From Moorella humiferrea (GTDB lineage: Bacteria; Bacillota; DSM-521; Neomoorellales; Neomoorellaceae), in the NCBI RefSeq assembly GCF_039233145.1, contig NZ_CP136419.1:718001-782000 (forward strand): a stretch of 64,000 bases of DNA. The letters run 5' to 3'. A model generated the notes under the pieces. It made no database searches, was not told where the DNA came from, and worked only from the letters and a program-made list of their open reading frames with translations. Shown here piece by piece: positions 41,648 through 57,229 of the stretch. The position numbers and the translations under genes are program-made. Numbering within the stretch: the stretch's first letter is position 1; each line of letters starts with the position of its first letter.

Positions 41648-42619
41648 TTGCGTATTTTAGTAACCGGTGCCGGCGGCTTTATCGGCTCTCACCTTACGGA
41701 AAGACTCGTCAAGGAAGGGCACAAAGTCCGGGCCTTTGTTCATTATAATTCCAGTAATACCTGGGGTTGGCTGGAAGAAAGCGAAGTTAAAGACGATATT
41801 GAAGTCTTTGCCGGTGATATCCGCGATTATGACAGCGTCCGGGCTGCCATGCGGGGAATAGAAGTAGTATTCCACCTTGCAGCCCTGATAGGGATACCCT
41901 ATTCTTACGTCACGCCGGTCGCTTATATCAGGACGAACATCGAAGGCACATATAATATTTGCCAGGCTGCCCGTGAAGAAGGCGTGAGAAGGGTGATCCA
42001 CACTTCTACGTCCGAGGTTTACGGGACGGCCCGGTATGTTCCTATTGATGAAGAGCATCCCCTCCAGGCCCAGTCACCCTATGCCGCCAGCAAGATAGGC
42101 GCCGACCAGCTGTCCCTGAGTTTTTACCGGTCTTTTGACCTGCCGGTAACCGTCGTCCGCCCCTTCAACACCTACGGCCCGCGCCAGTCGGCCAGAGCCG
42201 TTATCCCGGCAATAATCACCCAGCTACTAAGCGGGCAGGAAGAGATCAAGCTGGGCAACCTGGCACCGACGCGGGATTTTAATTTCGTTGCAGACACAGT
42301 TAACGGTTTTATCACAGCCGGGATGGCAACAAATACGGTGGGCGAAGTGGTTAATATCGGCAGCGGCCGGGAAATAAGCATCGGCGATCTGGTTGAGCTG
42401 ATAGGACAACTGATGGGGATAAAGGTAAGAGTACAGGCCGATGCGGAGCGATACCGCCCTGAAGCGAGCGAAGTGGAGCGTTTATGCTGCGATAACCGCA
42501 AAGCCGCTCGGATGGTAGGATGGCGGCCGGAATTCTCTTTAAATGAAGGTCTGGCAATAACAATCGATTGGTTTAAAAATCACCTGGCTTTATATAAAGC
42601 CGGGCAATATAACGTCTAA
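41648..42619 (+). CDS. legB: NAD-dependent 4,6-dehydratase LegB (extended SDR)
   Basis: TTG 41648 with AAGGAAGG eight bases upstream. The 323-residue SDR has NAD motif VTGAGGFIGSHL at the start, STSEVYGTARYVPIDEEHPL with catalytic Ser, and the YxxxK pair (SPYAASKIGADQ). LegB removes water from C4/C6 of a UDP- or GDP-linked N-acetylglucosamine, the first committed step of legionaminic acid synthesis. It starts a run of pathway genes, and LegC follows eleven bases later. Length and active-site residues are complete. UDP versus GDP substrate cannot be read off, but the PtmE-like gene downstream favours GDP. Confidence 0.88.
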   Translation: MRILVTGAGGFIGSHLTERLVKEGHKVRAFVHYNSSNTWGWLEESEVKDDIEVFAGDIRDYDSVRAAMRGIEVVFHLAALIGIPYSYVTPVAYIRTNIEGTYNICQAAREEGVRRVIHTSTSEVYGTARYVPIDEEHPLQAQSPYAASKIGADQLSLSFYRSFDLPVTVVRPFNTYGPRQSARAVIPAIITQLLSGQEEIKLGNLAPTRDFNFVADTVNGFITAGMATNTVGEVVNIGSGREISIGDLVELIGQLMGIKVRVQADAERYRPEASEVERLCCDNRKAARMVGWRPEFSLNEGLAITIDWFKNHLALYKAGQYNV

Positions 42620-42630
42620 GGCGGCGCCTT

Positions 42631-43749
42631 ATGATGCAGGAAGTTAAGATACCCCTGGACTGGCCCGATATCGGCGAGTTAGAAAAGGAGTATGTATTAA
42701 AAGCTCTAGAAAGCGGCTATGTTTCGTCGGCAGGCCCTATGGTGAGGGAGTTTGAAGAACGTTTTGCCGATTATTTGGGCATCAATCATGCAGTGGCCGT
42801 TGTCAACGGCACGGCCGGCCTGCACCTTGCCTTGAAACTACTGGGGATTGGACCAGGGGACGAAGTTATTGTACCCGCCCTTACCTTCATTGCCACGGTG
42901 AATCCGGTCGTATACGTTGGGGCCAGGCCGGTAGTGGTCGACGTTGATCCCTGTACGTGGAACATCGATCCCGCAGCGATAGAAAGAGCGATTACCAAAC
43001 ATACCCGGGCGATAATACCCGTCCACCTCTACGGCAACCCGGCCGATATGGACGCCATCATAGGATTGGCCCGCAAATACGGCTTGTATGTGATCGAAGA
43101 CGCCACCGAAGCTTTAGGTTCGACTTATAAAGGAAAGAAAGCAGGTACTTTCGGCCACATAGGCGTTTTTAGCTTCAACGGCAATAAAATTATCACTACC
43201 GGCGGCGGGGGGATGCTGGTAACAGAGGACCCGGAACTGGCTCGCAGAGCCAGAATCCTGGTCAACCAGGGCAGGGAACCGGGGGAAACCGAGTACGAGC
43301 ATAAAGAGATAGGCTTCAATTACCGCCTGACCAACCTCCAGGCTGCCCTGGGCCTGGCCCAGCTGGAACGCCTGCCGGAATTTTTGGCGGCTAAAAGACG
43401 CAATGCGGCGATTTATCGCCGGGAATTGCGCAATATATCAGGTATTGGCTGGCAGGAGGAGACGCCTGGGGCGGAAAGCAATTGGTGGCTTTTTTCCATA
43501 ACTATTGATGAAGAAGAATACGGGCAGGGTAGACAGAAATTAATGAATCGGTTGCATGAGCAGGGTATTCAAGTTCGTCCCCTATTTAAACCCCTATTCC
43601 GGCAACCATGTTACCATGGTTACACCTTTAATTTATGTCCGGTGGCAGACGAATTGTATCAGAAAGGGATAAACTTGCCAAGTGCAAGTTTCTTAACAGT
43701 TGAGGATATAAATGTTGTTGCTCGAGCTTTGAAAAGCGGGGCGTGCTGA
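42631..43749 (+). CDS. legC: PLP-dependent aminotransferase LegC
   Basis: The 372-residue DegT/DnrJ/EryC1 enzyme has the PLP pocket motifs VVNGTAGLHLALKLLGIGPG, VHLYGNPADMDAIIGLARK, YVIEDATEALGSTYKGKKAG and the Schiff-base Lys in FSFNGNKIITTGGGGML (residue ~185). It aminates the 4-keto sugar made by LegB, giving the 4-amino intermediate for acetylation. The family match is strongest to LegC/PglE-like enzymes, and it is placed immediately after legB. Two tandem start Met codons (MMQE) are present; the first follows a weak site. Confidence 0.88.
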   Translation: MMQEVKIPLDWPDIGELEKEYVLKALESGYVSSAGPMVREFEERFADYLGINHAVAVVNGTAGLHLALKLLGIGPGDEVIVPALTFIATVNPVVYVGARPVVVDVDPCTWNIDPAAIERAITKHTRAIIPVHLYGNPADMDAIIGLARKYGLYVIEDATEALGSTYKGKKAGTFGHIGVFSFNGNKIITTGGGGMLVTEDPELARRARILVNQGREPGETEYEHKEIGFNYRLTNLQAALGLAQLERLPEFLAAKRRNAAIYRRELRNISGIGWQEETPGAESNWWLFSITIDEEEYGQGRQKLMNRLHEQGIQVRPLFKPLFRQPCYHGYTFNLCPVADELYQKGINLPSASFLTVEDINVVARALKSGAC

Positions 43750-43755
43750 TTAATT

Positions 43756-44391
43756 ATGCCTTTACCGATCGTACTTATTGGGGCAGGAGGCCACGCCAAA
43801 GTTGTTGCTGATATAATCAGGAAAACGAGAGCCTATGAAATAATAGGTTGTACAGACCCCTGCAAAGATAATGCCCTGATTTCGTGGGGTATAAAGTATT
43901 TGGGTACGGACGAGATTTTGCCCGATCTACTGCAGACAGGGGTAAACCGGGCGGCTATGGGTATAGCCGGTTTTAATAATACTATTCGCAGAAGGTTATA
44001 TGAAAAAATCCGGGAGTTGGGGTTTAATTTTCCAGTACTTTGTCATCCGGCTGCTAATATAGCTCCGGGAGTAAGGCTGAGCGAGGCATCGATTATTATG
44101 GCTGCCGCTGTAATTAATCCAGATGTCACTATTGGTGAAAACGTGATTATTAATACAGGAGCAATAATCGAGCACGATTGTATAATAGGACATTCGGCAC
44201 AAATTGGTCCCGGGGCGATCCTGTGTGGTGGTGTTATAATCGAGGAAGGAGCTTTTATTGGTGCTGGGGCTTGTATCATCCAGGGTAAAAGAATTGGGCG
44301 GGGTGCCATAATAGGGAGCGGGGCAATAGTAATCCAAGATGTGCCTGCAGGTGTGACTGTGGTTGGCAATCCGGCCAGGATCAAACCTTAA
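43756..44391 (+). CDS. NeuD/LegH-type sugar O/N-acyltransferase
   Basis: The 211-residue protein opens with PIVLIGAGGHAKVVADIIRK (the PglD_N nucleotide-sugar-binding motif) and ends in about ten left-handed beta-helix hexapeptide repeats (IIMAAAVINPDVTIGENVII, GAIIEHDCIIGHSAQIGPGA, GAIVIQDVPAGVTVVGNPAR). Such enzymes use acetyl-CoA (or another acyl-CoA) to acylate the 4-amino sugar, giving UDP- or GDP-diNAcBac-type sugar. It lies six bases after legC, so it is very probably the LegH step. The transferred acyl group is inferred. Confidence 0.85.
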   Translation: MPLPIVLIGAGGHAKVVADIIRKTRAYEIIGCTDPCKDNALISWGIKYLGTDEILPDLLQTGVNRAAMGIAGFNNTIRRRLYEKIRELGFNFPVLCHPAANIAPGVRLSEASIIMAAAVINPDVTIGENVIINTGAIIEHDCIIGHSAQIGPGAILCGGVIIEEGAFIGAGACIIQGKRIGRGAIIGSGAIVIQDVPAGVTVVGNPARIKP

Positions 44392-44412
44392 ATTTTAGAG
44401 GTGAGGCTATTA

Positions 44413-45081
44413 ATGGGAGCTAAAGTTCTTGTTATAGCACCCCACCCTGATGATGAAACCCTGGGAGCCGGTGGTACGTTACTGCGCCATATTGCCAGCG
44501 GGGATGAAGTTTACTGGTGTGTAGTCACCCATGCCTTTGCCGACTCTACTGAAGCCTATTGTAAAGAAAGGATGTTGATGATTGAAAAGGTGAGCCGGGC
44601 TTATGGCTTTGCTAAATATTTCCTCCTTGGTTTTCCGGCTGCGGCTTTAGAAACCGTACCTATGCGGCGCATTATCGATGCGTTATCGAAAGTTATTCAA
44701 GAAATAAAGCCGGAGATAGTCTATAGCGTGGGGGATAGCGACGTTAATACAGATCACGATGTAGTTTATCGCGCCCTTATGGTAGCCACCAAGCCGGTTT
44801 ATACGCCTTTCATCCAAGAAATTCTGCTTTACGAAGTTCCATCAAGTACAAACTGGGCGTTCCCAGAAAAGAGTGTTCGCTTTCAACCTAATATATTTGT
44901 TGATATTTCTAGATTTATAGAGAGAAAGATAACAATAATGCGCTATTTTGGGGAAGAAATAAAAACATTTCCGCATGCGCGCAGTGAAGAAGGTGTAACA
45001 GCTTTAGCTATATTTCGTGGTGTTCAAGTAGGTATAACCCAAGCTGAGGGGTTTAGATTAATTAGGAAGATGATTCGGTAA
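44413..45081 (+). CDS. PIG-L/LmbE-family deacetylase
   Basis: ATG 44413 is chosen over GTG 44401, which overlaps the GAGGTGAG ribosome site. The 222-residue protein starts with the Zn-binding PHPDDETLGAGGTLLRH (His-x-x-Asp-Asp), with a further motif NTDHDVVYRALMVATKP carrying His ligands. PIG-L enzymes remove acetyl groups from N-acetylated sugars. It lies just after the acyltransferase and before the AT-rich tailoring genes, so it may expose an amine for another substituent on the nonulosonate or its precursor. Confidence 0.85.
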   Translation: MGAKVLVIAPHPDDETLGAGGTLLRHIASGDEVYWCVVTHAFADSTEAYCKERMLMIEKVSRAYGFAKYFLLGFPAAALETVPMRRIIDALSKVIQEIKPEIVYSVGDSDVNTDHDVVYRALMVATKPVYTPFIQEILLYEVPSSTNWAFPEKSVRFQPNIFVDISRFIERKITIMRYFGEEIKTFPHARSEEGVTALAIFRGVQVGITQAEGFRLIRKMIR

Positions 45082-45110
45082 GATTCATATATGGGGGTAA
45101 ATAACCAGCC

Positions 45111-46106
45111 ATGTATGATGTAACAGAGGAAGTTTTATGGGCAGATAAACTCGAGGTTTCATTATTACCGCGTACGATCAATCTTGAGTTTACTAATAGA
45201 TGCAATTTAAGATGTGATTTTTGCATAAACCATCAACCAACGTTTAGGGAAAAGGGGGATTTGCCGGAGCATATTTTAGATAATCTTATTATAGAATTAC
45301 CACCAAGCACTGAAATTTCTATATGTGGTGTAGGGGAGCCGACCCTCCACCCAAAGTTTAGTAGATACTTAGAAAAACTAAGTTCTCATTTCACTAACCT
45401 CTCGTTAGTGACCAATGGTCAAAACCTTACACCAGCAATCATTGATAGTGTTATAGCTTCCAATATTAATAAAGTGATTGTTTCCCTTGACTATTTTTCC
45501 GAAGAAACGTATAAAATGCGTAAAGGTGGAGACCTCGAACATGTTTGTCAGGGAATTAAAGAGTTATTTGCTGCTAGAAAAAATATTAAAAATAAGTTAT
45601 CTATCCAAATAAACATGTTAGCACAAAAAAACCAAGAATCGGAAATTGAGAGGGCGATTTCATTCTTTAATCAATTTTTAGGACCAAAAGATTGCATATA
45701 TACAAGGTCAATTAAGACTTTAGCTGGGCAGGTTAAAGTATCAACTATGACTGAGGATTCTTGGCTGGGATTAGAAAAATTTAAAGAAGATTTATCTAAA
45801 CGGATAGATACTTCTAAGTTTGTTGTGGAAAATTGGTGTAGGTTGTTAAAACTAAAGGGACCCATTGAAAAAAGGAAAGCATGTCGGCATCCATATAAAT
45901 ACTGTATGATCTTATGGGATGGTACAGTTGTCGGATGTTGTATTGATTTTAATGGCCACTTAAAGATGGGAAACCTTAACAATGAAAGTCTATATGAGAT
46001 TTGGACAGGTGAAAGGTATAATCGTTTTAGACGCGCTATGGAAAAGTTGGATTTCAGAAAATATAAGTTATGCGAAAGCTGCGAGGAATGGTATAAATGC
46101 ATATAA
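45111..46106 (+). CDS. radical SAM/SPASM-type protein
   Basis: The 331-residue protein has the radical SAM cluster NRCNLRCDFCINH (Cys-x3-Cys-x2-Cys) near residue 30 and the usual ICGVGEPTLHPKF and SLVTNGQNLT motifs. The C-terminus carries a SPASM-like auxiliary cluster: CRHPYKYCMILWDGTVVGCC and CESCEEWYKC. Radical SAM enzymes with this extension modify peptides or act as radical-based epimerases, dehydrogenases or amino-sugar enzymes. The codon use is strikingly AT-rich. It overlaps the next gene by ten bases. Substrate unknown; the setting suggests a sugar of the nonulosonate route. Confidence 0.85.
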   Translation: MYDVTEEVLWADKLEVSLLPRTINLEFTNRCNLRCDFCINHQPTFREKGDLPEHILDNLIIELPPSTEISICGVGEPTLHPKFSRYLEKLSSHFTNLSLVTNGQNLTPAIIDSVIASNINKVIVSLDYFSEETYKMRKGGDLEHVCQGIKELFAARKNIKNKLSIQINMLAQKNQESEIERAISFFNQFLGPKDCIYTRSIKTLAGQVKVSTMTEDSWLGLEKFKEDLSKRIDTSKFVVENWCRLLKLKGPIEKRKACRHPYKYCMILWDGTVVGCCIDFNGHLKMGNLNNESLYEIWTGERYNRFRRAMEKLDFRKYKLCESCEEWYKCI

Positions 46107-47602
46107 GCCCAAAACAGATATATATATACATTTTAAGTAATCCAGATGAAAATAATTGGCGAGGGGTACCTTCTCCTTTTTGGAATCAAATAGGTAGTTT
46201 GTGGCAAATTGAATTATTGCTTCATAGATTAGCTTTAATAAAGTTTAGTCATCGTGTTATAATTTCATTACCCAATGGGTATACCGATGCGCGATTAGGA
46301 GAATTAATTCCAAAATATAATTGCCAAATTAAATTTGGAACGCGCTCTTTGTTAGAAAGAGAAAAAGAAATTATAGACTCCTTAAACCCTCAAGATCTAG
46401 CATTATTTTTTAAAGTTGAACACGCTTTAGTAGATTATATAGAGATAAATGACCTATTATCGATCCTAGCTAATGATAGTTGTAAAGAAATCCAATTATG
46501 TGGGTTTATACCTGGCACAATGCCATATAAAATTGTGTATGGTTCGGGTAACGGTATGAAGCTTATTGAGAGTAATAAATTAGATAATATGAGATTTGGG
46601 GCAGAAATATCCGATAATGATAAAATACGAAGTTTCTCATGGATTGCAAGCAAATTGGGTTCGCGAATTTTAGATATAACAATTGAACAGTTGAGTTCAT
46701 TTCTTCAAGAAAATAGAATAAGTATTATGTTTTTCGGTGAAGAAATAGATTATGAAACTATAGATCGATGTGATTTTTGTGGAGGGGGTCTAGATTATCT
46801 TCCGATATCCAACACATTACCTATAAACTCTTTCATTCCATGTGATAGATCATATTACATGAATTGTAGAAATTGTGGGTTAGTACATCTTAACCCACGT
46901 CCTTCAAAAAATTATCTGAGTCTCTTATATAACTCAAATTATGCTGTGGAACGTTCAGGGAAAGCTCTTTTATCAAGGCATAAAAATTGGCAATGGGTCT
47001 TAAAAAAGTTACCTCGAAAACAGAATTTTAGCTTACTGGACGTCGGCGGTAACAGTGGTGAATTCGGAGAATTTTTGGATAAAAAAATTTGTGAATATCA
47101 TTTAACAGATATAAGTGATTCAGCATGTTCATTAGCGAGTGCCAAGGGTATATTAGCTTTTCAAGGAAGATTTGATGAGATTGATTTCCCTAGAAAATAT
47201 GATTTTATAACTATGTTCGAGTTACTGGAACACCTTCCTCTTGCAAACATAAAAAAATACTTATATAAAGCGGCTTCATTGGTTAAACCCGGCGGTAGTA
47301 TTTTCATCAGTACGCCAAATCACGATAGTTTACTTAATAAACATTTTGGATTAGCTTATGCAGCCGTTCCTTACCATTACTATTTATTTTCAGCCAGTAC
47401 ATTGAAACGGATAGTAGAAAGGTCAATAGGGTGTAAGACTTCAATAGAAGAAACATGTTGTAATTTAGTGAACCTGTGGGGGTGGAAAGAACATTGGGAA
47501 CATTTTGTTTTAGGGAAGGATAAAAGGAAATTAGCTTCAAACCTCAATGTAAACAATTATCAATTTTTAGATGATGATTTATTGCTACAAATAAAATTGT
47601 AA
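46097..47602 (+). CDS. nucleotidyltransferase-like / methyltransferase fusion
   Basis: Two parts. Residues ~1-200 resemble a degenerate GT-A or cytidylyltransferase-type fold (IGSLWQIELLLHRLALIKFS, LEREKEIIDSL, LALFFKVEHALVDYIEINDL) but lack the usual start motif LPGK. Residues ~220-500 hold a zinc-ribbon-like CDFCGG and NCRNCGLVHLNPRPS, then a class I SAM methyltransferase: SLLDVGGNSGEFGEFLDKK, MFELLEHLPLANIKKYL, LVKPGGSIFISTPNHD. Such CxxC-methyltransferase modules are common in O-antigen clusters. The fusion could methylate a nucleotide-activated sugar. It overlaps the radical SAM gene. Confidence 0.75.
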   Translation: MHISPKQIYIYILSNPDENNWRGVPSPFWNQIGSLWQIELLLHRLALIKFSHRVIISLPNGYTDARLGELIPKYNCQIKFGTRSLLEREKEIIDSLNPQDLALFFKVEHALVDYIEINDLLSILANDSCKEIQLCGFIPGTMPYKIVYGSGNGMKLIESNKLDNMRFGAEISDNDKIRSFSWIASKLGSRILDITIEQLSSFLQENRISIMFFGEEIDYETIDRCDFCGGGLDYLPISNTLPINSFIPCDRSYYMNCRNCGLVHLNPRPSKNYLSLLYNSNYAVERSGKALLSRHKNWQWVLKKLPRKQNFSLLDVGGNSGEFGEFLDKKICEYHLTDISDSACSLASAKGILAFQGRFDEIDFPRKYDFITMFELLEHLPLANIKKYLYKAASLVKPGGSIFISTPNHDSLLNKHFGLAYAAVPYHYYLFSASTLKRIVERSIGCKTSIEETCCNLVNLWGWKEHWEHFVLGKDKRKLASNLNVNNYQFLDDDLLLQIKL

Positions 47603-47620
47603 ACATCAAGGGATAAAAAG

Positions 47621-48664
47621 ATGAATAACCGGGTGAGGATACTTCTCACAGCCACAGGTGGGTTGGCGGGATATTCCCACTACCATCTTCTTAAGCGCAT
47701 CCAGGCTTTTCAAGTAGAGGTAGTAGCAGCCGATATAAATAATAGTTTCAACTATACGACCTTTACTGGCGAAACCCTGGAGATTATTCCAAGAGGGGAA
47801 GAGGAAGGGTTTATTGATGCCCTGCTTAAAATCTGTATCAAAAAAGGAGTCAATGTCGTCTTCCCGTGTAGCTCCAATGAACTTGTGCCTCTAGCGAGAA
47901 ATAGGGATCTTTTTAAACGTCATGGAGTTGTTGCAGCCGTTCCCCATAATCCCATAGAATTAGCGGTGGCTTGCGATAAGCTGAGTGCCTTGGACAGAGT
48001 AGCTCAACAACCAGTGCTTGCCAACTTTGTCCCTAGATACTGTCGTCTAAGTAACAAAGTTGACTTGTACCATGCTGCCTATAAGCTAGGCTACCCCCAC
48101 GAAAAAGTAGTATTTAAATCCCGTTTTGCCCAGGGAGGCCGGGGGATGATCTTGTTGGGAAAGCCAACAAAGGACGAGTGGCTGAGCAGCAAACATGGGG
48201 GAGCGATGCCCTTAGAATGGCTGGACTTGCTTGTAGAAAAGAACGACCTCGCACAATATTTTGTTATGGAATACCTGCCAGGTAAAGAGTACAGCGTTGA
48301 CGTATTGTGTTATGAAGGGAAGGCGGAGATTATTATACCCAGGGAGCGAAAAGTGGTTGTGGATGGCAAGGCGGCTGTCAGCAGGCTGGTATGGCATGAG
48401 GGATTGCTAGCCTGTGTAAGGGAATTAATCAAACTGTTCAATCTGTCCTACATTGTGAACCTCCAGTTTAAAGAAGATAAATGTGGACAACCCAAGCTTT
48501 TAGAAATAAATGCGCGGGTCCCTGGTACTCTGGCTGCCGACCTAGCGGGAGGCATCAATATGTTCGAGGAAGCCCTAAATTTAATCTACTATGGGCGAGT
48601 TAAAAACCGTGAGGTGCGTTGGGGAACAGAATGCGGTCGCTTTTTCCAGGAGCTTTACCGGTAA
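47621..48664 (+). CDS. ATP-grasp ligase
   Basis: The 347-residue protein has the carbamoyl-phosphate-synthase-like N-domain (RILLTATGGLAGYSHYHLLK) and the ATP-grasp fold: VVFKSRFAQGGRGMILL (glycine-rich ATP loop), QYFVMEYLPGKEYSVDVLCY and the Mg-binding LLEINARVPGTL near the end. ATP-grasp enzymes join a carboxylate to an amine through an acyl-phosphate. Here it may attach an amino acid or acyl unit to an amino group of the sugar, perhaps the amine exposed by the PIG-L enzyme. It overlaps the PHP gene. Confidence 0.82.
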   Translation: MNNRVRILLTATGGLAGYSHYHLLKRIQAFQVEVVAADINNSFNYTTFTGETLEIIPRGEEEGFIDALLKICIKKGVNVVFPCSSNELVPLARNRDLFKRHGVVAAVPHNPIELAVACDKLSALDRVAQQPVLANFVPRYCRLSNKVDLYHAAYKLGYPHEKVVFKSRFAQGGRGMILLGKPTKDEWLSSKHGGAMPLEWLDLLVEKNDLAQYFVMEYLPGKEYSVDVLCYEGKAEIIIPRERKVVVDGKAAVSRLVWHEGLLACVRELIKLFNLSYIVNLQFKEDKCGQPKLLEINARVPGTLAADLAGGINMFEEALNLIYYGRVKNREVRWGTECGRFFQELYR

Positions 48665-49383
48665 TAGCAGATAACCACATACATTCAACTTTTTCCGATG
48701 GCCAAGATGAGCCGGAGGATATGATACGAGCCGCTTTATCTCTAGGAATAAGATGTCTTTGCTTTACTGATCATGCACGCAAAGAAAGTGATTATATTCC
48801 AACCTATTTGGAAGAACTTGAAAAGTTAAAGAAAAAGTATAGAGATAGGGATATCACAATTGGAAAGGGACTGGAAGTAAAGTTTATTGACGAGCAAGGA
48901 AATATCGATTTTAATTTATTGTGGGCTCATAGAATCGATAATTTAATTATTTCCTTCCATGAATTTCCTGGCGAAGTTTATCAAAATAAAGGACAGCTTG
49001 AATTTAAAAAAACATGGTTTGAAACTTTAAGAGGCTTTACTAGAAAGCATTTAATTATACTTAAACAAGAAAATCCCAAGCTAAGAGTAATTCTGGGTCA
49101 TCCTTTTAGTATGTGGTTAAAGCTCGGGTTATTTCCAGAACAGAATGAAGTTAGCAGATTAATAGCGCTTGCTAACCAGGCGGGCTTTGGATTGGAAATC
49201 AATGTTAACCCAAAGCATCGTTTAAATGATGAATATATCCAGCTTATTGTTAACTCATGTTCTATTATTAGCTGGGGCACAGACTCTCATTCTTGCCTGG
49301 AACTAGCAAATAATTCGTCTAGCTTGCTAGAAGCCAGACAATTATATGGAGGTATAAAATCAGGTTATTATGACCCGGCGTAA
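48631..49383 (+). CDS. PHP-domain hydrolase
   Basis: ATG 48631 (GGGG upstream); earlier TTG at 48619 lacks a clear site. The 250-residue protein shows the PHP metal motifs: DNHIHSTFSDG (His-x-His and Asp), LCFTDHARKES (Asp-His), LEVKFIDEQ, VILGHPFSMW (His) and GTDSHSCLEL (Asp-x-His). PHP proteins are trinuclear metal phosphoesterases, such as histidinol-phosphatase. A phosphatase step would fit removal of a phosphate from a sugar intermediate. The ATP-grasp gene overlaps its start, and its end overlaps neuC by 14 bases. Confidence 0.83.
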   Translation: MRSLFPGALPVIADNHIHSTFSDGQDEPEDMIRAALSLGIRCLCFTDHARKESDYIPTYLEELEKLKKKYRDRDITIGKGLEVKFIDEQGNIDFNLLWAHRIDNLIISFHEFPGEVYQNKGQLEFKKTWFETLRGFTRKHLIILKQENPKLRVILGHPFSMWLKLGLFPEQNEVSRLIALANQAGFGLEINVNPKHRLNDEYIQLIVNSCSIISWGTDSHSCLELANNSSSLLEARQLYGGIKSGYYDPA

Positions 49384-50599
49384 GGTAATGGTAGTAACAG
49401 GTATTCGATCTGAGTATTTTTTGTTAGAGCCTTTATTAGAGGGAATTGAAGCCTCATCTAAACTAGAACTTATAATTGTGGCAACAGGAGCTCATCTTAG
49501 TCCCCGCTATGGTTATACATTAGATCAAATTAAGAATAGGTTCAATGATGTAGAAACTATACTATCCCTATTTGATACAGATGAATTGATAGGAAGAGTA
49601 AAAGGGCTGGGGTTAATTACAATGGAGCTTGCTGAAATTGTAAGGCGACGGAAGCCTGACTTTTTACTTGTGCTGGGTGACCGCGAGGAATCCCTTGCAG
49701 TGGCTACCGTAGGTAATTATTTGAATATTCCTGTCGTACATCTGGGCGGAGGGGATCGGGTAATAGGAAATGTAGACGACCATGTACGCCATGCGGTTAC
49801 TAAAATGGCTCATTTACATTGCCCTTTTACGGTTCAGAGCGGACGGCGTATCCTGCAGATGGGCGAGGAAAAATGGCGCGTAACTGTAACTGGCTCTCCA
49901 GGGCTTGATGCCATAAAATCACTACCCGACCTTTCTTTAGAGGAACTGGAAACCAGTTTAGGTATCTCTTTGGGTGCCAAGTATTTTGTTTTACTCCAGC
50001 ATCCTATCTCTTCTGAGTTTAGTGAAGGAGCCTCCCAGATAGATGTTACCTTACAAGCTATAGTTAAGGTAGGGCTACCAACTGTAATTATCAAGCCAAA
50101 TTCCGATCCCGGAACTCGACGGATGATAGAGGTTATTGATGAATATGTACGTAAATATACTTTTTTGCGGGCATATACTAATTTACCGCGCCTACAATTT
50201 GTAAATCTTTTGCGTCATGCTGTTGCTTTAGTTGGTAACTCCAGTGCAGGTATCCATGAAGCCCCTTTTCTTCATTTGCCAGCAGTAAATATCGGTAACC
50301 GGCAAAAAGAGCGAGAACATTCTAACAACATTATATTTGTACCTTTTGATGTTGACACAATTGCTATGGTGCTAGAAAAGCTTGCGTTTGACACTGAATA
50401 CCGTTTACAATTTTCCAAGTGCATTTCTATTTATGGGGACGGGAATGCGGTTCCACGTATTGTCCACTTATTAGAGAGTGTAGAGATAGATCGCAAATTG
50501 CTTTATAAAGATTTTATTGATCTTCCTGAAGATAACTGGGAGTGGGGAAATGGGGAACCAGAATGTTTTTATAATAGCCGAAGCGGGCATCAACCATAA
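49370..50599 (+). CDS. neuC: hydrolysing UDP-GlcNAc-type 2-epimerase NeuC/LegG
   Basis: The 409-residue protein has the family motifs: VTGIRSEYFLLEPLLEGI, LVLGDREESLAVATVGNYL, VVHLGGGDRVIGNVDDHVRH, then the UDP-binding VGNSSAGIHEAPFLHLPAVN, IGNRQKEREHSNNI. It inverts C2 of the acylated sugar and releases the nucleotide, giving the free 6-deoxy-mannosamine-type sugar for NeuB. The stop lies inside the neuB coding region. Its codon use is AT-rich like the tailoring genes, so it may have been imported with them. Confidence 0.88.
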   Translation: MTRRKVMVVTGIRSEYFLLEPLLEGIEASSKLELIIVATGAHLSPRYGYTLDQIKNRFNDVETILSLFDTDELIGRVKGLGLITMELAEIVRRRKPDFLLVLGDREESLAVATVGNYLNIPVVHLGGGDRVIGNVDDHVRHAVTKMAHLHCPFTVQSGRRILQMGEEKWRVTVTGSPGLDAIKSLPDLSLEELETSLGISLGAKYFVLLQHPISSEFSEGASQIDVTLQAIVKVGLPTVIIKPNSDPGTRRMIEVIDEYVRKYTFLRAYTNLPRLQFVNLLRHAVALVGNSSAGIHEAPFLHLPAVNIGNRQKEREHSNNIIFVPFDVDTIAMVLEKLAFDTEYRLQFSKCISIYGDGNAVPRIVHLLESVEIDRKLLYKDFIDLPEDNWEWGNGEPECFYNSRSGHQP

Positions 50600-51566
50600 T
50601 GGCGATTTGCAGCTGGCCAGGAAACTGGTAGATGCGGCAGTAGAAGCGGGGGCAGACGCCGTAAAGTTTCAGACTTTCAAAGCTGAAGAAGTAGTTACCC
50701 CCGGCGCCGAGAGGGCCCAATATCAAAAGGATAACATGCCTGAAAAAGACGAAAGCCAGCTGGAAATGATTAAAAGGCTGGAATTGAGCTACGCCCAATT
50801 TCGGGAGCTTTATGCTTATTGCCGGCAGAAGGGAATTATTTTTCTCTCCTCTCCTTTTGACCAGGAAAGCATTGATTTTCTGGCCGAACTGGGAGTGCCA
50901 TATTTTAAGATCCCTTCGGGAGAAATAACCAACTATCCTTTTTTGCGTCGGATCGCCGGGAAAAAGCGGCCGGTTATCCTTTCCACCGGCATGGCGACCC
51001 TGGGTGAAGTAGAGGGAGCATTACAGGTTTTACGGGAAGCCGGGGCGAAGGACATCACCCTGCTGCATTGCACCACCAATTACCCGGCCCTGCCGGAGGA
51101 GGTAAATTTAAGGGCTATGCTTACCATGAAGCAGGCCTTCGCTCTTCCGGTGGGCTATTCAGATCACACTATGGGTATCGCCGTACCCATAGCGGCAGCG
51201 GCCCTGGGAGCAGAAGTGATTGAGAAGCACTTAACCTTGGATCGCAATCTTCCCGGCCCGGACCATCGCTCCTCTCTGGAGCCGGGAGAATTTAAAGAAA
51301 TGGTCGCGGCCATCCGCCAGGTGGAGAAAAGCTTGGGAGACGGCATCAAACGGCCCGCCCCGGGCGAGCTGGCCGTCATGCCGGCGGCTAGGCGCAGCCT
51401 GGTGGCTACCAGGGACATAGCCGCCGGGGAAATAATCACGGAATCTTGCCTGACCGCCAAAAGGCCGGGGACGGGCATCCCGCCGAATTTCTGGGACGTG
51501 GTGGTGGGCCGGCAGGCCCGCCGGGATATTGCCTCCGGGAGTATTTTAAGCTGGGATATGATTTGA
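50550..51566 (+). CDS. neuB: nonulosonic acid synthase NeuB/LegI
   Basis: ATG 50550 overlaps neuC and lies after GGAGTGGGG; it gives MGNQNVFIIAEAGINHNGDL, the family start. The 338-residue protein has the PEP-aldolase barrel (GADAVKFQTFKAEEV, YFKIPSGEITNYPFLRRIAG, ILSTGMATLGEVEGAL, LLHCTTNYP, GYSDHTMG) and a C-terminal antifreeze-like SAF domain (RRSLVATRDIAAGEIITESC). It condenses PEP with the 6-deoxy-diacylamino-mannose sugar to make legionaminic acid or a derivative. All active-site residues visible are conserved. Confidence 0.93.
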   Translation: MGNQNVFIIAEAGINHNGDLQLARKLVDAAVEAGADAVKFQTFKAEEVVTPGAERAQYQKDNMPEKDESQLEMIKRLELSYAQFRELYAYCRQKGIIFLSSPFDQESIDFLAELGVPYFKIPSGEITNYPFLRRIAGKKRPVILSTGMATLGEVEGALQVLREAGAKDITLLHCTTNYPALPEEVNLRAMLTMKQAFALPVGYSDHTMGIAVPIAAAALGAEVIEKHLTLDRNLPGPDHRSSLEPGEFKEMVAAIRQVEKSLGDGIKRPAPGELAVMPAARRSLVATRDIAAGEIITESCLTAKRPGTGIPPNFWDVVVGRQARRDIASGSILSWDMI

Positions 51567-51584: not shown

Positions 51585-52649
51585 ATGGGCTGGCACGATG
51601 ATAAACTCGGGGAAATCTGGGCCCTGCCCGGGGAGAGCTTGAAGCTGGCCCTGCCGCGGATGGACAGGGCCGGCCTCCAGGTGCTTTTAGTAGGAGATGC
51701 CGAAAGGCATCTTTTCGGCATCATCACCGACGGCGACATTCGCCGGGCACTGTTGCGGGGTGAAAGCCTGGACGTGCCCGTCGAGCAGGTCATGCAGGCG
51801 CAGCCCAAGGTCCTGTCGGCCGGTGTGTCTTTAGATGTGGCGAGAAGGTTGATGTTGAACCATAATATTCGCCATATTCCCCTGGTAAATAATGAACATC
51901 AGGTAGTGGATTTGCTCCTATGGATAGATTTATTTGGGAGCAAGGTGGAGGCGAGGCCCGAACCGGTGGTTATTATGGCTGGCGGCAAAGGTACCCGGCT
52001 GGACCCTTTTACCAAGATTTTACCCAAACCGATGATCCCCCTTGGCGATAAACCAATAGTAGAAGTTTTAATGGATAGATTTTATGACCACGGATTTTCG
52101 CAGTTTATTCTTTCAGTGGGCTATAAAGCTGAAGTAGTAAAGTTATATTTTAACGATAGCAACGGCCGGCCGTACAAAGTAAGCTTTGTCCAGGAAGATG
52201 AACCCCTGGGTACCGCCGGCGCCCTGGGGCTCCTGCGGCAGCAGCTGCAGAGAACCTTCCTGGTGACCAACTGCGACGTCATCATTGAGATGAATTACGG
52301 GGAATTGCTGCGTTACCATCATGAGAAAGGGAATGCCCTGACTATAGTGGGAGCCCTGCGGGATTTTACCATTCCATACGGCGTTTTGCGTACCGAGGCC
52401 GGGGAATTTCACCAGATAGAAGAGAAGCCTAGTTTTCATTTTCTGGTCAACATCGGCCTGTATGTGCTGGAACCCGAGGTTTTAGAGGGCCTTGAGAATG
52501 GATCTTTTATCCATATGACGGATTTGATTATGGCCGCTAAGGATAAAGGCCTGCGGGTGGGGGTATACCCCCACCATGGTCGCTGGTTCGACATCGGCCA
52601 GTGGGACGAGTACCGCCAGACTCTGCGGGCCTTTGAAGGCCTGGTATAA
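51585..52649 (+). CDS. ptmE: CBS-domain nucleotidyltransferase (PtmE-like)
   Basis: The 354-residue protein begins with a pair of CBS modules (VLLVGDAERHLFGIITDGDI, NHNIRHIPLVNNEHQVVDLL), then an NTP_transferase domain: VVIMAGGKGTRLDPFTKILP, KPMIPLGDKPIVEVLMDR, VTNCDVIIEMNYGELLRY and FDIGQWDEYRQTLRAF. This CBS plus sugar-1-phosphate nucleotidyltransferase combination is that of PtmE, glucosamine-1-phosphate guanylyltransferase in the GDP-sugar legionaminic acid route of Campylobacter. That would make the LegB substrate GDP-linked. The activated nucleotide is inferred from the family. Confidence 0.82.
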   Translation: MGWHDDKLGEIWALPGESLKLALPRMDRAGLQVLLVGDAERHLFGIITDGDIRRALLRGESLDVPVEQVMQAQPKVLSAGVSLDVARRLMLNHNIRHIPLVNNEHQVVDLLLWIDLFGSKVEARPEPVVIMAGGKGTRLDPFTKILPKPMIPLGDKPIVEVLMDRFYDHGFSQFILSVGYKAEVVKLYFNDSNGRPYKVSFVQEDEPLGTAGALGLLRQQLQRTFLVTNCDVIIEMNYGELLRYHHEKGNALTIVGALRDFTIPYGVLRTEAGEFHQIEEKPSFHFLVNIGLYVLEPEVLEGLENGSFIHMTDLIMAAKDKGLRVGVYPHHGRWFDIGQWDEYRQTLRAFEGLV

Positions 52650-52866: not shown

Positions 52867-53565
52867 TTGTATCAAGGTAAAACCATCCTCGGTTTTATCC
52901 CCGCCCGGGCCGGGTCTAAAGGCGTGCCGGGGAAAAACATCAGGCCCCTGGCGGGGAAACCTTTGATCGTCCACACCATCGAGACCGCCAGGGCAAGCGG
53001 TGTTTTCGACTGCCTGCTGGTATCGACTGACGGCGAAGAGATCGCCAGGATAGCCAGGGAAGCCGGGGCGGAAGTGCCGTTTATGCGCCCGGCGGAACTG
53101 GCCACCGATACGGCTCGCGGAATCGATGCCCTGACCCACGCCATGGCCTGGTGTGAAGAACACGGGAGCCTTTATGATTGGGTAATGGTCTTGCAGCCAA
53201 CCAGCCCGTTACGCTCCGTTGACGATATCCTGGGAGCATGCCGGTTGATGCTGGAACGCGATGCTCAAGCAGTCGTTTCGGTATGCCAGGTTGACCACCA
53301 CCCCTGGTGGTGTAACACTCTTCCCGAAGATTTAAACATGGAAAACTTTATCCGGCCTGAGGCTTTGAATTTAAACCGGCAGGAATTGCCTGTCTTTTAT
53401 CGCTTGAATGGGGCGATATATATGGGCGAATGGGAATTTTTTAAAAAGGGAAGCTCCTTTTATGGCCCGCGTACTTATGCTTATATTATGCCATGGGTGC
53501 GGTCAGTAGATATAGATAGTGAAATTGATTTTACCCTTGCAGAAATATTACTAAAGGGCAGTTAA
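52867..53565 (+). CDS. neuA: CMP-nonulosonic acid cytidylyltransferase NeuA/LegF
   Basis: TTG 52867 follows AGGGGAG. The 232-residue protein begins ILGFIPARAGSKGVPGKNIR, the CTP-binding loop of CMP-sugar synthetases, then LVSTDGEEIARIAREAGAEV, LQPTSPLRSVDDILGACRLM and the metal-binding DIDSEIDF near the end. It charges the nonulosonic acid as CMP-sugar, the donor for the Maf glycosyltransferase. It is the last gene of the pathway and is followed by remnants up to the flagellin gene. Confidence 0.9.
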   Translation: MYQGKTILGFIPARAGSKGVPGKNIRPLAGKPLIVHTIETARASGVFDCLLVSTDGEEIARIAREAGAEVPFMRPAELATDTARGIDALTHAMAWCEEHGSLYDWVMVLQPTSPLRSVDDILGACRLMLERDAQAVVSVCQVDHHPWWCNTLPEDLNMENFIRPEALNLNRQELPVFYRLNGAIYMGEWEFFKKGSSFYGPRTYAYIMPWVRSVDIDSEIDFTLAEILLKGS

Positions 53566-54437: not shown

Positions 54438-55391
54438 TTGATTATCAATCACAACGTTTTTGCCCTCAACGCTTATCGCAATTTAACGGTCACGAATAGT
54501 AACATGGCTAAAGCTATGGAAAAACTGTCTTCGGGCCTGCGGATCAACCGGGCCGCCGATGATGCTGCTGGTCTGGCCATCAGCGAAAAGATGCGCGGTC
54601 AGATCCGGGGTTTAAATCAGGCGGTGCGCAATGCCCAGGACGGCATCTCTATGATCCAGACGGCTGAAGGTGCGTTAAATGAAACCCACGCCATTTTACA
54701 GAGGATGCGAGAGCTGGCGGCTCAGGCGGCAAATGATACTTTAACCGCTGATGATCGCACGCAGATCCAAAAGGAGATCAATCAGCTGACAGAAGAAATC
54801 GACCGCATCGGCCGGACAACGGAGTTTAACACCCAGGCTTTGTTGGACGGGAGCTTTACTGGTAAAAAGATTCAAATTGGTGCCAATCCCAATCAAGATC
54901 TTACAGTTGATATTAACAGTATGAGAGCAGCAAAAGTATCAGGTACTACCGTAACAGCAGGCGGCTTGGACGTTGTCCAAAATAAAGGCGTAAAAGTAAG
55001 CGGTACTGTGGTAACATCTGCTACAGGAAACTCAGCAGTTAATTATATTAAACTTATAAATGCTAATGGTACTGCCGTAACCGCCTATGCAGTCAGCGTA
55101 ATGACCAACTCCGCTGCCAATGCGGCAATAAAAATTTTCCAAGATGCAATTGATAAGGTTTCAACCGAGCGCTCCAAGCTTGGCGCCATTCAGAACCGCC
55201 TGGAGCATACTATTGCCAATCTGAGTGTTGCTTCAGAAAACCTGACGGCAGCCGAATCCCGTATCAGGGATGTCGATATGGCCCAGGAAATGATGAACTT
55301 TACCAGGAGCCAGATCTTAAGCCAGGCAGGCACGGCTATGCTCGCCCAATCGAATCAGATCCCGGCGACGGTTTTGCAGTTACTCAGGTAA
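54438..55391 (+). CDS. fliC: flagellin
   Basis: TTG 54438, ten bases after AAGGAGG. The 317-residue protein has conserved D0/D1 ends: MIINHNVFALNAYRNLTVTN, KLSSGLRINRAADDAAGLAI and C-terminal NLTAAESRIRDVDMAQEMMN, ARSQILSQAGTAMLAQ-like end. The middle is short (~90 residues), Thr/Ser/Val-rich (VSGTTVTAGGLDVVQNKGVK), the likely surface for glycosylation. It forms the filament. The nonulosonate cluster upstream and the Maf enzyme downstream suggest modification of Ser/Thr residues. A terminator follows. Confidence 0.95.
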   Translation: MIINHNVFALNAYRNLTVTNSNMAKAMEKLSSGLRINRAADDAAGLAISEKMRGQIRGLNQAVRNAQDGISMIQTAEGALNETHAILQRMRELAAQAANDTLTADDRTQIQKEINQLTEEIDRIGRTTEFNTQALLDGSFTGKKIQIGANPNQDLTVDINSMRAAKVSGTTVTAGGLDVVQNKGVKVSGTVVTSATGNSAVNYIKLINANGTAVTAYAVSVMTNSAANAAIKIFQDAIDKVSTERSKLGAIQNRLEHTIANLSVASENLTAAESRIRDVDMAQEMMNFTRSQILSQAGTAMLAQSNQIPATVLQLLR

Positions 55392-55453: not shown

Positions 55454-57229
55454 ATGATAGCAGGAGAAAATTCAACCTTTGAAATAATTATGGCTAAAAA
55501 CGGTTTGATCACCCTGAAATATCATGGCGACCGGGAAGTTTTTTTACATAGCAGTTTTGACCCGGAAATGGAAGGCAGGAGGTGGGCCGAAGGGGTAGAC
55601 TGTCAACCAGATGATACAGTTATTGTTTTAGGTATAGGCCTGGGCTACCATATAAAGGCTTTGGCCAGGAGGTTGACTTCAGGCAAAATTATTGCCATCG
55701 AACCCCATGAGGAACTAATCGCCAGTTGCAGTAACTACTGGGTATTTAAAGACCTTATTACCAAAAACAAAGTTATTATTTTGTCAAGCGAACAGCCCTC
55801 AAAGAATTTTTTGGCCGGACTTGTTGATCCCTTTCACCTTGAGAAGGTAAAAATCGCGGAATATCATCCCTTACGGTATTATTTCTCGAGGGAATTTATC
55901 GATATCCTCAGGGAAATTAATAACTCTTTATCTCATCTATTTGTTTCGGCTAATACCGTTCTTTACTTCTCTCGCACCTGGACCCAGAACTTTTTTGCTA
56001 ATCTAGATAAAATCTTAACGGCTGTTCCGGCCGATTTATTCAAAGATGTTTTTCCGAACAGACCGGGGATTATTGTTTCGGCAGGCCCCTCACTAAATAA
56101 AAATATTCATTTATTAAAAAAAGCTAAAGGTAAAGCCGTAATCATCGTCGTTGGCACGGCCCTCAGGCCTGTAACGGCTATAGATGTAAAACCAGATATA
56201 GCTGTCTCACTGGACGGAAGCGAGGCTAATTACCGTCATTTTCAGGAATTGAGCATTTCCGGTTTTCCTTTGTTATTTGACGCCATCATTTATCCCCAGA
56301 TTTTAAGGGAGCATCAGGGACCCCTTATAGGCAGCGTTTTTTATGATACTTTCAGCCGCTGGCTGATTAACTCTGGCCTACAGGTCCCGGGACAAATTAG
56401 TATAGGCCCTTCCGTAGCCAATATGGCCTTTGATTTTGCCGTGAAATTAGGCCTGGATCCCATTATTTTTATCGGCCAGGATCTGGCCTTTAGTGATGGT
56501 CACACCCATGCCAGGGGGACAGTTTACGAAAAAAATAAACCGACAGATGATGAAGTTAATCTTCTCGAGATAGAAAGTTTTGACGGGGGCAAGGTGCTGA
56601 CAAGTCGTTCCCTGCATTCCATGCTACTATATCTGGAAACGCAAATTGCCCTGACGGCAAGCGGTAGGAATATAATAAACGCTACGGAAGGTGGGGCTAA
56701 GATAGCTGGTACTAGAGCCATGACCCTGAACGAAGCAATTAATCTTTATTGCAAGGATAAATTTGATCCCGAAGAAAAAATACAGGCGATTTGTTCGGCT
56801 TATAATCCACCTGGACCGGATACACTGGGAAAACTGGTGCAGAAAATAAAGGCAGAAGCAAGTAATTTAGAAAAAGCAACAAAGATAGCCAGAAGTGGTT
56901 TGAGACTGGCTAATAATTTGGAACTGTTACTGAGGGCCAAAGAGCCCCTACAGCATAAGATTAATAAATTACTAAAACGGCTGGACGCTGTTGATAAGGA
57001 GTTGAAAAATTTAAGTGCAGGATTATTACCGGTGGATATGGCTTTCCAACCGGTATGGTTTTACTTGAATAAAGGGGCTTTCGATAAAGAGGCAGAAGAT
57101 CAGCATACTGAGGGTATAAGACTCGCCAAAAAGACCCAGTTCTTATACCATGGTTTGATTGAAAGCATTAACATTGTAAAAGAATCCATGCTTCAGGCGG
57201 CGAAGAATATTGATAAGGGAAGTGAATAA
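55454..57229 (+). CDS. motility accessory factor Maf, flagellin glycosyltransferase (DUF115)
   Basis: The 591-residue protein has the Maf/6-hydroxymethylpterin pyrophosphokinase-like core (PF01973): GIIVSAGPSLNKNIHLLKKA, IIVVGTALRPVTAIDVKPDI, AVSLDGSEANYRHFQELS, FIGQDLAFSDGHTHARGT. The N-terminus (EIIMAKNGLITLKYHGDRE) and C-terminal helical region are family-typical. Maf proteins transfer pseudaminic, legionaminic or similar acids from CMP-sugars onto flagellin Ser/Thr residues. It lies directly downstream of the flagellin gene, consistent with that role. The next gene overlaps by none but begins two bases later. Confidence 0.88.
   Translation: MIAGENSTFEIIMAKNGLITLKYHGDREVFLHSSFDPEMEGRRWAEGVDCQPDDTVIVLGIGLGYHIKALARRLTSGKIIAIEPHEELIASCSNYWVFKDLITKNKVIILSSEQPSKNFLAGLVDPFHLEKVKIAEYHPLRYYFSREFIDILREINNSLSHLFVSANTVLYFSRTWTQNFFANLDKILTAVPADLFKDVFPNRPGIIVSAGPSLNKNIHLLKKAKGKAVIIVVGTALRPVTAIDVKPDIAVSLDGSEANYRHFQELSISGFPLLFDAIIYPQILREHQGPLIGSVFYDTFSRWLINSGLQVPGQISIGPSVANMAFDFAVKLGLDPIIFIGQDLAFSDGHTHARGTVYEKNKPTDDEVNLLEIESFDGGKVLTSRSLHSMLLYLETQIALTASGRNIINATEGGAKIAGTRAMTLNEAINLYCKDKFDPEEKIQAICSAYNPPGPDTLGKLVQKIKAEASNLEKATKIARSGLRLANNLELLLRAKEPLQHKINKLLKRLDAVDKELKNLSAGLLPVDMAFQPVWFYLNKGAFDKEAEDQHTEGIRLAKKTQFLYHGLIESINIVKESMLQAAKNIDKGSE

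Follow-up and report, generated by a model that had tools for sequence, protein, structure and literature searches.

The locus described here raises the question of what five genes do between neuD and neuC of a legionaminic-type operon in Moorella humiferrea. They lie in a stretch of 64,000 nucleotides (positions 718,001 to 782,000 of contig NZ_CP136419.1, hereafter the window) from a genome of the genus Moorella consisting of a single 2.67-Mb contig, and they encode a PIG-L de-N-acetylase, a radical S-adenosylmethionine (SAM)/SPASM protein, a SAM methyltransferase, an ATP-grasp ligase and a PHP-type hydrolase. The segment is likely to be an N-acyl exchange cassette placed inside a guanosine diphosphate (GDP)-type legionaminic acid operon that serves flagellin. 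Two amines are concerned. The C4 amine is made by LegC, is normally acetylated by NeuD and becomes N7; the C2 amine is already acetylated in N-acetylglucosamine (GlcNAc) and becomes N5.

The evidence comes in the first place from a co-occurrence rule. neuC matches were collected in 398 genomes of the phylum and in two further Moorella genomes, with up to 20 kb read around each; partner genes were searched with purpose-built profiles, absence was judged within 8.5 kb of neuC, and formyltransferases were identified by Pfam Formyl_trans_N and _C. A PIG-L gene occurs in 16 of the 66 neuC loci, and all 16 also carry a second acyl-installing enzyme (10 an ATP-grasp ligase, 6 a formyltransferase), whereas only 3 of the 50 loci lacking PIG-L do. 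The Fisher p value of this association is 1e-12, or 3e-10 after thinning of near-copies. Because the loci are related, the five phylogenetically independent contrasts, which agree (4.9 of 5 on average), are the safer statement. Chance co-occurrence was rejected on these counts, with the caveat that independent gains are few. The idea of the first-pass annotation, that the set could deacylate an amine, ligate another group to it and methylate it, thus gains comparative support. Outside the phylum, plasmid records hold PIG-L with ATP-grasp and HAD genes (Ensifer adhaerens), with formyltransferases (the archaeon Halorussus caseinilyticus) and with a GNAT gene (Sinorhizobium mexicanum). Judging by gene content, the loci combining PIG-L and a formyltransferase are predicted to make N-formyl nonulosonates. 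The two genes adjoin in six legionaminic-type loci, including L148 (10363-11268), L155 (8507-9394), L168 (8519-9409) and L170 (12450-13451).

In the window, the cassette belongs to a co-directional operon, legB-legC-neuD-PIG-L-radical SAM-methyltransferase-ATP-grasp-PHP-neuC-neuB-ptmE-neuA, followed by flagellin and Maf glycosyltransferase genes. Its features are as follows.

41648-42619, plus strand: legB, nucleoside diphosphate (NDP)-GlcNAc 4,6-dehydratase (TIGR04180, 510 bits, above cut-off).
42631-43749, plus strand: legC, aminotransferase forming the amine at C4, the future N7 (TIGR04181, 456 bits, above cut-off; a recombination edge lies inside, near 43,691).
43756-44391, plus strand: neuD, acetyltransferase, proposed to act in N7 acetylation (TIGR03570, 218 bits; the only NeuD of the genome above cut-off).
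44401-45081, plus strand: PIG-L/LmbE de-N-acetylase, which is proposed to release the amine at C2, the future N5 (PF02585, 77 bits).
45111-46106, plus strand: radical SAM/SPASM protein, accessory (PF04055, 69 bits, and PF13186, 65 bits; CX3CX2C motif).
46097-47602, plus strand: SAM methyltransferase with an N-terminal domain of about 220 residues (PF13489, 76 bits, residues 305-442).
47621-48664, plus strand: ATP-grasp ligase, proposed to attach a new acyl group to the freed amine (PF15632, 97.8 bits; PylC-like_N, 36 bits).
48619-49383, plus strand: PHP-type hydrolase, proposed to work with the ligase as its phosphatase (PF02811, 57.6 bits).
49370-50599, plus strand: neuC/legG hydrolysing 2-epimerase, from a clade associated with loci that have PIG-L and ATP-grasp (TIGR03568, 375 bits; clade support 100/99).
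about 50550-51566, plus strand: neuB/legI nonulosonate synthase, in the conserved sequence that flanks the exchanged block (PF03102, 351 bits).
51585-52649, plus strand: ptmE-like protein with CBS and nucleotidyltransferase domains, proposed to supply GDP-GlcNAc (PF00483 and PF00571).
52867-53565, plus strand: neuA/legF, cytidine monophosphate (CMP)-nonulosonate synthetase (PF02348, 88 bits).
54438-55391, plus strand: flagellin (read from the sequence; homologues adjoin other nonulosonate loci).
55454-57229, plus strand: Maf-type flagellin glycosyltransferase (read from the sequence; homologues lie beside flagellin in related loci).
43691-50565, no strand: block spanning neuD to neuC, exchanged in comparison with plain Moorella loci (edges from blastn with L032, L034 and L035).

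LegB, LegC, an acetyltransferase, NeuC, NeuB and NeuA are thus present in one operon by NCBIfam and Pfam, and the four NCBIfam models listed are all above cut-off, which bears out the earlier assignment to a legionaminic-type pathway. The CBS plus NTP_transferase architecture is found in the ptmE-like protein, and GDP is a proposal, since the sequence does not fix the choice of nucleotide. The five families named for the genes between NeuD and NeuC all stand, each Pfam match being above its gathering threshold. Some details of the first description had to be adjusted: position 44413, taken as the start of the insert, is an internal ATG of a PIG-L open reading frame beginning at 44401, and the overlaps reported throughout exist for radical SAM/methyltransferase (about 10 nt), ATP-grasp/PHP (about 34-46 nt) and PHP/neuC (14 nt), whereas PIG-L/radical SAM and methyltransferase/ATP-grasp are separated by short gaps. 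The insert is partly AT-rich, as had been noted. Strong AT-richness is confined to the radical SAM and methyltransferase genes (GC contents of 0.347 and 0.327) and a weaker one spans the whole neuD-neuC block (PHP 0.367, neuC 0.416, PIG-L 0.435, neuD 0.464, ATP-grasp 0.470), against 0.525 for legB and 0.548 for neuB in the flanks. An Rfam scan of the operon gave no match.

The unit that has been exchanged is larger than five genes and includes neuD and a distinct neuC. Indeed, two Moorella relatives (loci L034 and L035) have a plain operon, legB-legC-neuD-neuC-neuB-ptmE-neuA, at the same flagellar place. In blastn comparisons with these loci, DNA identity is about 83% up to 43,691, only part of neuD aligns between the edges (about 70%) and nothing does from 44,381 to 50,565, where identity resumes at 91-93% to other Moorella loci (L032, L034 and L035). 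The window NeuC is about 39% identical to those of L034 and L035, and NeuB 94-95%. Since the blastn edges stand at 43,691 and 50,565, the exchange took in neuD and neuC along with the five genes. Part of this block also moves on a wider scale: ATP-grasp, PHP and neuC are 81.8% identical over 2,964 bases to the loci L013 and L021 of DTU068, a Clostridia metagenome-assembled genome of another family, against 66% for legB-legC, so that the trio moved as a block. With these edges and the loci of congeners, the five genes as the unit, as first proposed, were dropped.

Not all members of the cassette are equally constant. Moorella sulfitireducens has all five genes (84-97% identical). In Moorella sp. 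UBA4076, a deletion of about 924 bases has reduced the radical SAM gene to a short C-terminal remnant, the other four genes being kept. A locus of the same order (L014) lacks the radical SAM gene, and the DTU068 locus L013 lacks both it and the methyltransferase. The constant core is therefore PIG-L, ATP-grasp, PHP and the NeuC type, the radical SAM protein and the methyltransferase being accessory. The UBA4076 PHP gene (L020, 10993-11757) stops about eight codons early with its metal-ligand residues kept. Among the 398 genomes, PHP orthologues (at least 40% identical) occur in exactly the four genomes with an ATP-grasp orthologue (at least 50% identical), and both are confined to neuB loci; the wide occurrence away from neuB that, by the first-pass annotation, would have refuted its own reading is thus not seen for close relatives of the insert. 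More generally, the flagellar glycan island is hypervariable in Moorella. In genomes of this genus with no neuC match, the interval from a flgL-like gene to fliC (L054, L055, L052/L053) is about 4-5 kb in G237 and G212 and about 20 kb in G098.

At which step would the cassette act? The NeuCs of loci with PIG-L and ATP-grasp form one clade (support 100/99) drawn from bacteria of at least seven families, the sole other row being L180, on a 3-kb contig too short to show its gene neighbours. Loci with PIG-L and a formyltransferase show no separate NeuC clade, presumably because a formyl group is small enough for an ordinary NeuC. The clade, and the fact that NeuC travels with ATP-grasp and PHP, fit a substituent already present before C2 epimerisation. 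It may be supposed instead that PIG-L, ATP-grasp and PHP act after synthesis, on legionaminic acid or its CMP form, as in the PtmG-type acetamidino modification. PtmG is named a CMP-Leg5Am7Ac synthase, a precedent for late decoration, and the step cannot be read from gene order alone; this is nevertheless unlikely, as a dedicated NeuC clade moving with ATP-grasp and PHP would be purposeless if the change came after NeuB, and as the exchange in Moorella does not extend to NeuB and NeuA.

A modification before epimerisation could bear on either amine. Placing another group on N7 needs only an enzyme that replaces NeuD, whereas on N5 a deacetylase has to act first, and the gene content of the loci agrees with this: 15 of the 16 PIG-L loci retain NeuD, and two of the three with an acyl enzyme but no PIG-L, L032 and L171, have no NeuD nearby and none above cut-off anywhere in either genome. 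N5 is thus inferred to be the site of the replaced acyl group. In L032 (7335-8964; genome G013, a Moorella), an ATP-grasp and a HAD gene stand between legC and neuC in the place that NeuD has in related strains, and G013 is predicted from this arrangement to carry a non-acetyl group on N7. Such a ligase plausibly acts on the C4 amine, so the same deacylation and ligation might be imagined on N7 in the window as well, PIG-L removing the acetyl of NeuD and N5 staying acetylated. That is rather improbable, for NeuD and PIG-L would then be a futile pair, G013 displays the simpler route with NeuD dropped, and the change of NeuC clade fits a change at C2. Besides, PIG-L relatives of known function remove the C2 N-acetyl of GlcNAc (PMC4101496).

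The catalytic motifs of the three core enzymes are intact. The residues of the PIG-L metal motif (H-x-DDE...DH) are invariant in 10 orthologues, as are E295, N297, K166 and QGGRG of the ATP-grasp protein in its orthologues (candidate Mg- and ATP-binding residues) and, in five orthologues, the candidate PHP metal ligands H20, H22, D27, H52, E86, H114, H161, D222 and H224. The window ATP-grasp protein is proposed to be a carboxylate-amine ligase for an aminosugar. PHP does not reach the histidinol-phosphatase HisJ model (TIGR01856, 63.4 bits, cut-off 90.2).

Why would a ligase need such a hydrolase? In the ligase-bearing legionaminic-type loci, a phosphatase-type gene is adjacent or fused in 13 cases out of 13 (5 PHP, 8 HAD). 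Thus, L037 (4099-5412), a nonulosonate locus, has ATP-grasp fused in one protein to a HAD-type domain, as read by motif, and the window PHP occupies the place of HAD beside the ligase. ATP-grasp and HAD perhaps make up a two-gene unit for amide formation on amino sugars, of which no description was found in the literature searched. The pair is widespread and common beside sugar aminotransferases where NeuB is absent; in L093, L094, L095, L110, L112 and L114 the neighbour is a LegC-like aminotransferase gene, without neuB. In Campylobacter jejuni capsule synthesis, the amide ligase Cj1438C joins a phosphorylated partner and the phosphatase Cj1435 then removes the phosphate; there the carboxylate belongs to the sugar and the amine to the partner, whereas the reverse is proposed in Moorella, and the parallel drawn here is one of chemistry (PMC12409886). 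Given this parallel and the phosphatase accompanying the ligase, the acid may be used in phosphorylated form, for example as a phosphohydroxy acid or phosphoserine. This is the least secure step of the core scheme, and belief in it falls slightly short of balanced.

The two accessory proteins are less easily placed. The best equivalog for the radical SAM protein is TIGR04317 (122.9 bits of the 380 required, NCBIfam), so that neither a tungsten-oxidoreductase maturase nor another named equivalog is indicated. Its nearest solved chain, over the SPASM part only, is BtrN, the dehydrogenase of an aminocyclitol, and oxidation by the Moorella protein is possible by this likeness. Radical SAM decoration of nonulosonates may be recurrent. 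In another Moorella genome (G401), one such gene is placed between neuB and ptmE. Radical SAM genes about 24% identical to that of the window where measured lie in or beside the legionaminic loci L033 (7222-8292), L154, L127 (12021-13049, SPASM type) and L171. As to the methyltransferase, the UbiG O-methyltransferase model is not reached (TIGR01983, 34.2 bits, cut-off 102.95). It had been described as a nucleotidyltransferase-like/methyltransferase fusion, of which the methyltransferase part holds and the N-terminal part is not confirmed: this domain has no Pfam match in the window protein, its best in an orthologue being NTP_transf_3 at E=0.12; hhalign against a NeuA profile was not significant, and a PDB profile search returned chance matches only. 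An AlphaFold model computed from a three-row alignment had a predicted local distance difference test score of 31 and was not used. An orthologue with the same N-terminal domain is present in L014.

Put together, LegB and LegC would convert GDP-GlcNAc into a 4-amino-4,6-dideoxy sugar, of which NeuD would acetylate the C4 amine. PIG-L would strip the original C2 N-acetyl and the ATP-grasp ligase would couple a carboxylic acid to the freed amine, with PHP probably dephosphorylating this acid, once coupled, or its precursor and the methyltransferase methylating the new group. The dedicated NeuC would epimerise and release the altered sugar, from which NeuB and NeuA would make the CMP-activated nonulosonate to be attached to flagellin by Maf. 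Several points weigh against this N-acyl exchange scheme. The association on which it draws stems from a small number of independent gains (p=0.06 when tested by pairs). L037, on a contig of 10.8 kb, has both ATP-grasp and NeuD but no PIG-L, while in G217 PIG-L is present and no NeuD in the genome exceeds the cut-off. The radical SAM protein, absent from most relatives, and the methyltransferase have no fixed place in it, and a glutamyl group, as in Clostridium botulinum, would need no phosphatase.

That the five genes are chance neighbours serving another surface glycan or metabolite is most improbable, for although distant PIG-L/ATP-grasp pairs (about 30% identity) exist in two loci with no NeuB match (L015, 8921-10858, and L016, 7852-11460) and the radical SAM and methyltransferase genes are AT-rich and patchy, the ATP-grasp and PHP orthologues are found in neuB loci only, lie interspersed among the genes of one operon and accompany NeuC from family to family. 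The distant pairs may point to deacetylation and ligation as a wider theme for amino sugars. Glycosyltransferase and sugar-kinase-like genes lie near the one in L015. Remodelling of the carbon skeleton, also suggested at first, was set aside, nothing but the presence of a radical SAM gene speaking for it.

Comparison with known systems indicates that the parts are of known kinds; what appears new is the way they are combined, together with the co-occurrence rule and the NeuC clade. Each core step of the Campylobacter GDP-legionaminic pathway (LegB, LegC, LegH, LegG, LegI, LegF, PtmE) has a counterpart in the window, with NeuD in place of LegH and no acetamidino synthase; Campylobacter decorates by PtmG and PtmH, whereas Moorella would do so by PIG-L, ATP-grasp, PHP, the methyltransferase and the radical SAM protein. 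BshB and MshB of bacillithiol and mycothiol synthesis share the PIG-L fold and expose the C2 amine of GlcNAc so that a new substituent can be attached (PMC4101496), but on other substrates, and the Moorella protein stays below the BshB1 cut-off (TIGR04001, 54.8 against 182.5 bits). In Shewanella oneidensis, sfmABCDE concerns a nonulosonate of the flagellum that bears one acetyl (274 Da) and a further methylated moiety, affected by the ATP-grasp gene sfmE and the methyltransferase gene sfmD; no PIG-L or PHP is described there, the ligase is of the ATP-grasp_4 family, and the likeness drawn here is one of description (PMC3765264). No description of PIG-L, ATP-grasp and a phosphatase as a nonulosonate module was found in the literature, subscription papers lying mostly outside the search.

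The nearest product is that of C. botulinum, whose flagellin carries Leg5GluNMe7Ac (Twine 2008, as cited in PMC5207245, PMC2674064 and PMC13317340), written Leg5Ac7NMeGlu (m/z 418) in PMC2674064. As Leg5GluNMe7Ac, it is a flagellin legionaminic acid in which an N-methylated amino acid replaces the N5 acetyl, so that the earlier statement that no described nonulosonate shows this combination overlooked it. Such a product fits the chemistry proposed for the cassette. The comparison is one of products and not of loci: a PtmH-type methyltransferase is located with the Leg genes (PMC13317340), and in the accessible text of these papers PHP and radical SAM proteins, both present in Moorella, are not reported.

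A general N5-diversifying module is put forward tentatively, as somewhat less probable than not. It would consist of PIG-L and an interchangeable enzyme for re-acylation (a formyltransferase, a GNAT protein, or ATP-grasp paired with a phosphatase); the ATP-grasp form would use phosphorylated acid donors and would itself have driven the separate NeuC clade, and the Moorella cassette would move between strains and families and yield an undescribed nonulosonate. For genome reading, the rule would be that PIG-L with NeuD indicates a replaced N5 acyl, and an alternative acyl enzyme without NeuD a replaced N7 group. The rule gives a proposed role to genes that lack annotation in many loci for flagellar and surface glycans, takes the NeuC clade as its marker and allows glycan masses to be predicted. 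It may also offer a gene basis for the sugar of C. botulinum, which is known and genetically unassigned.

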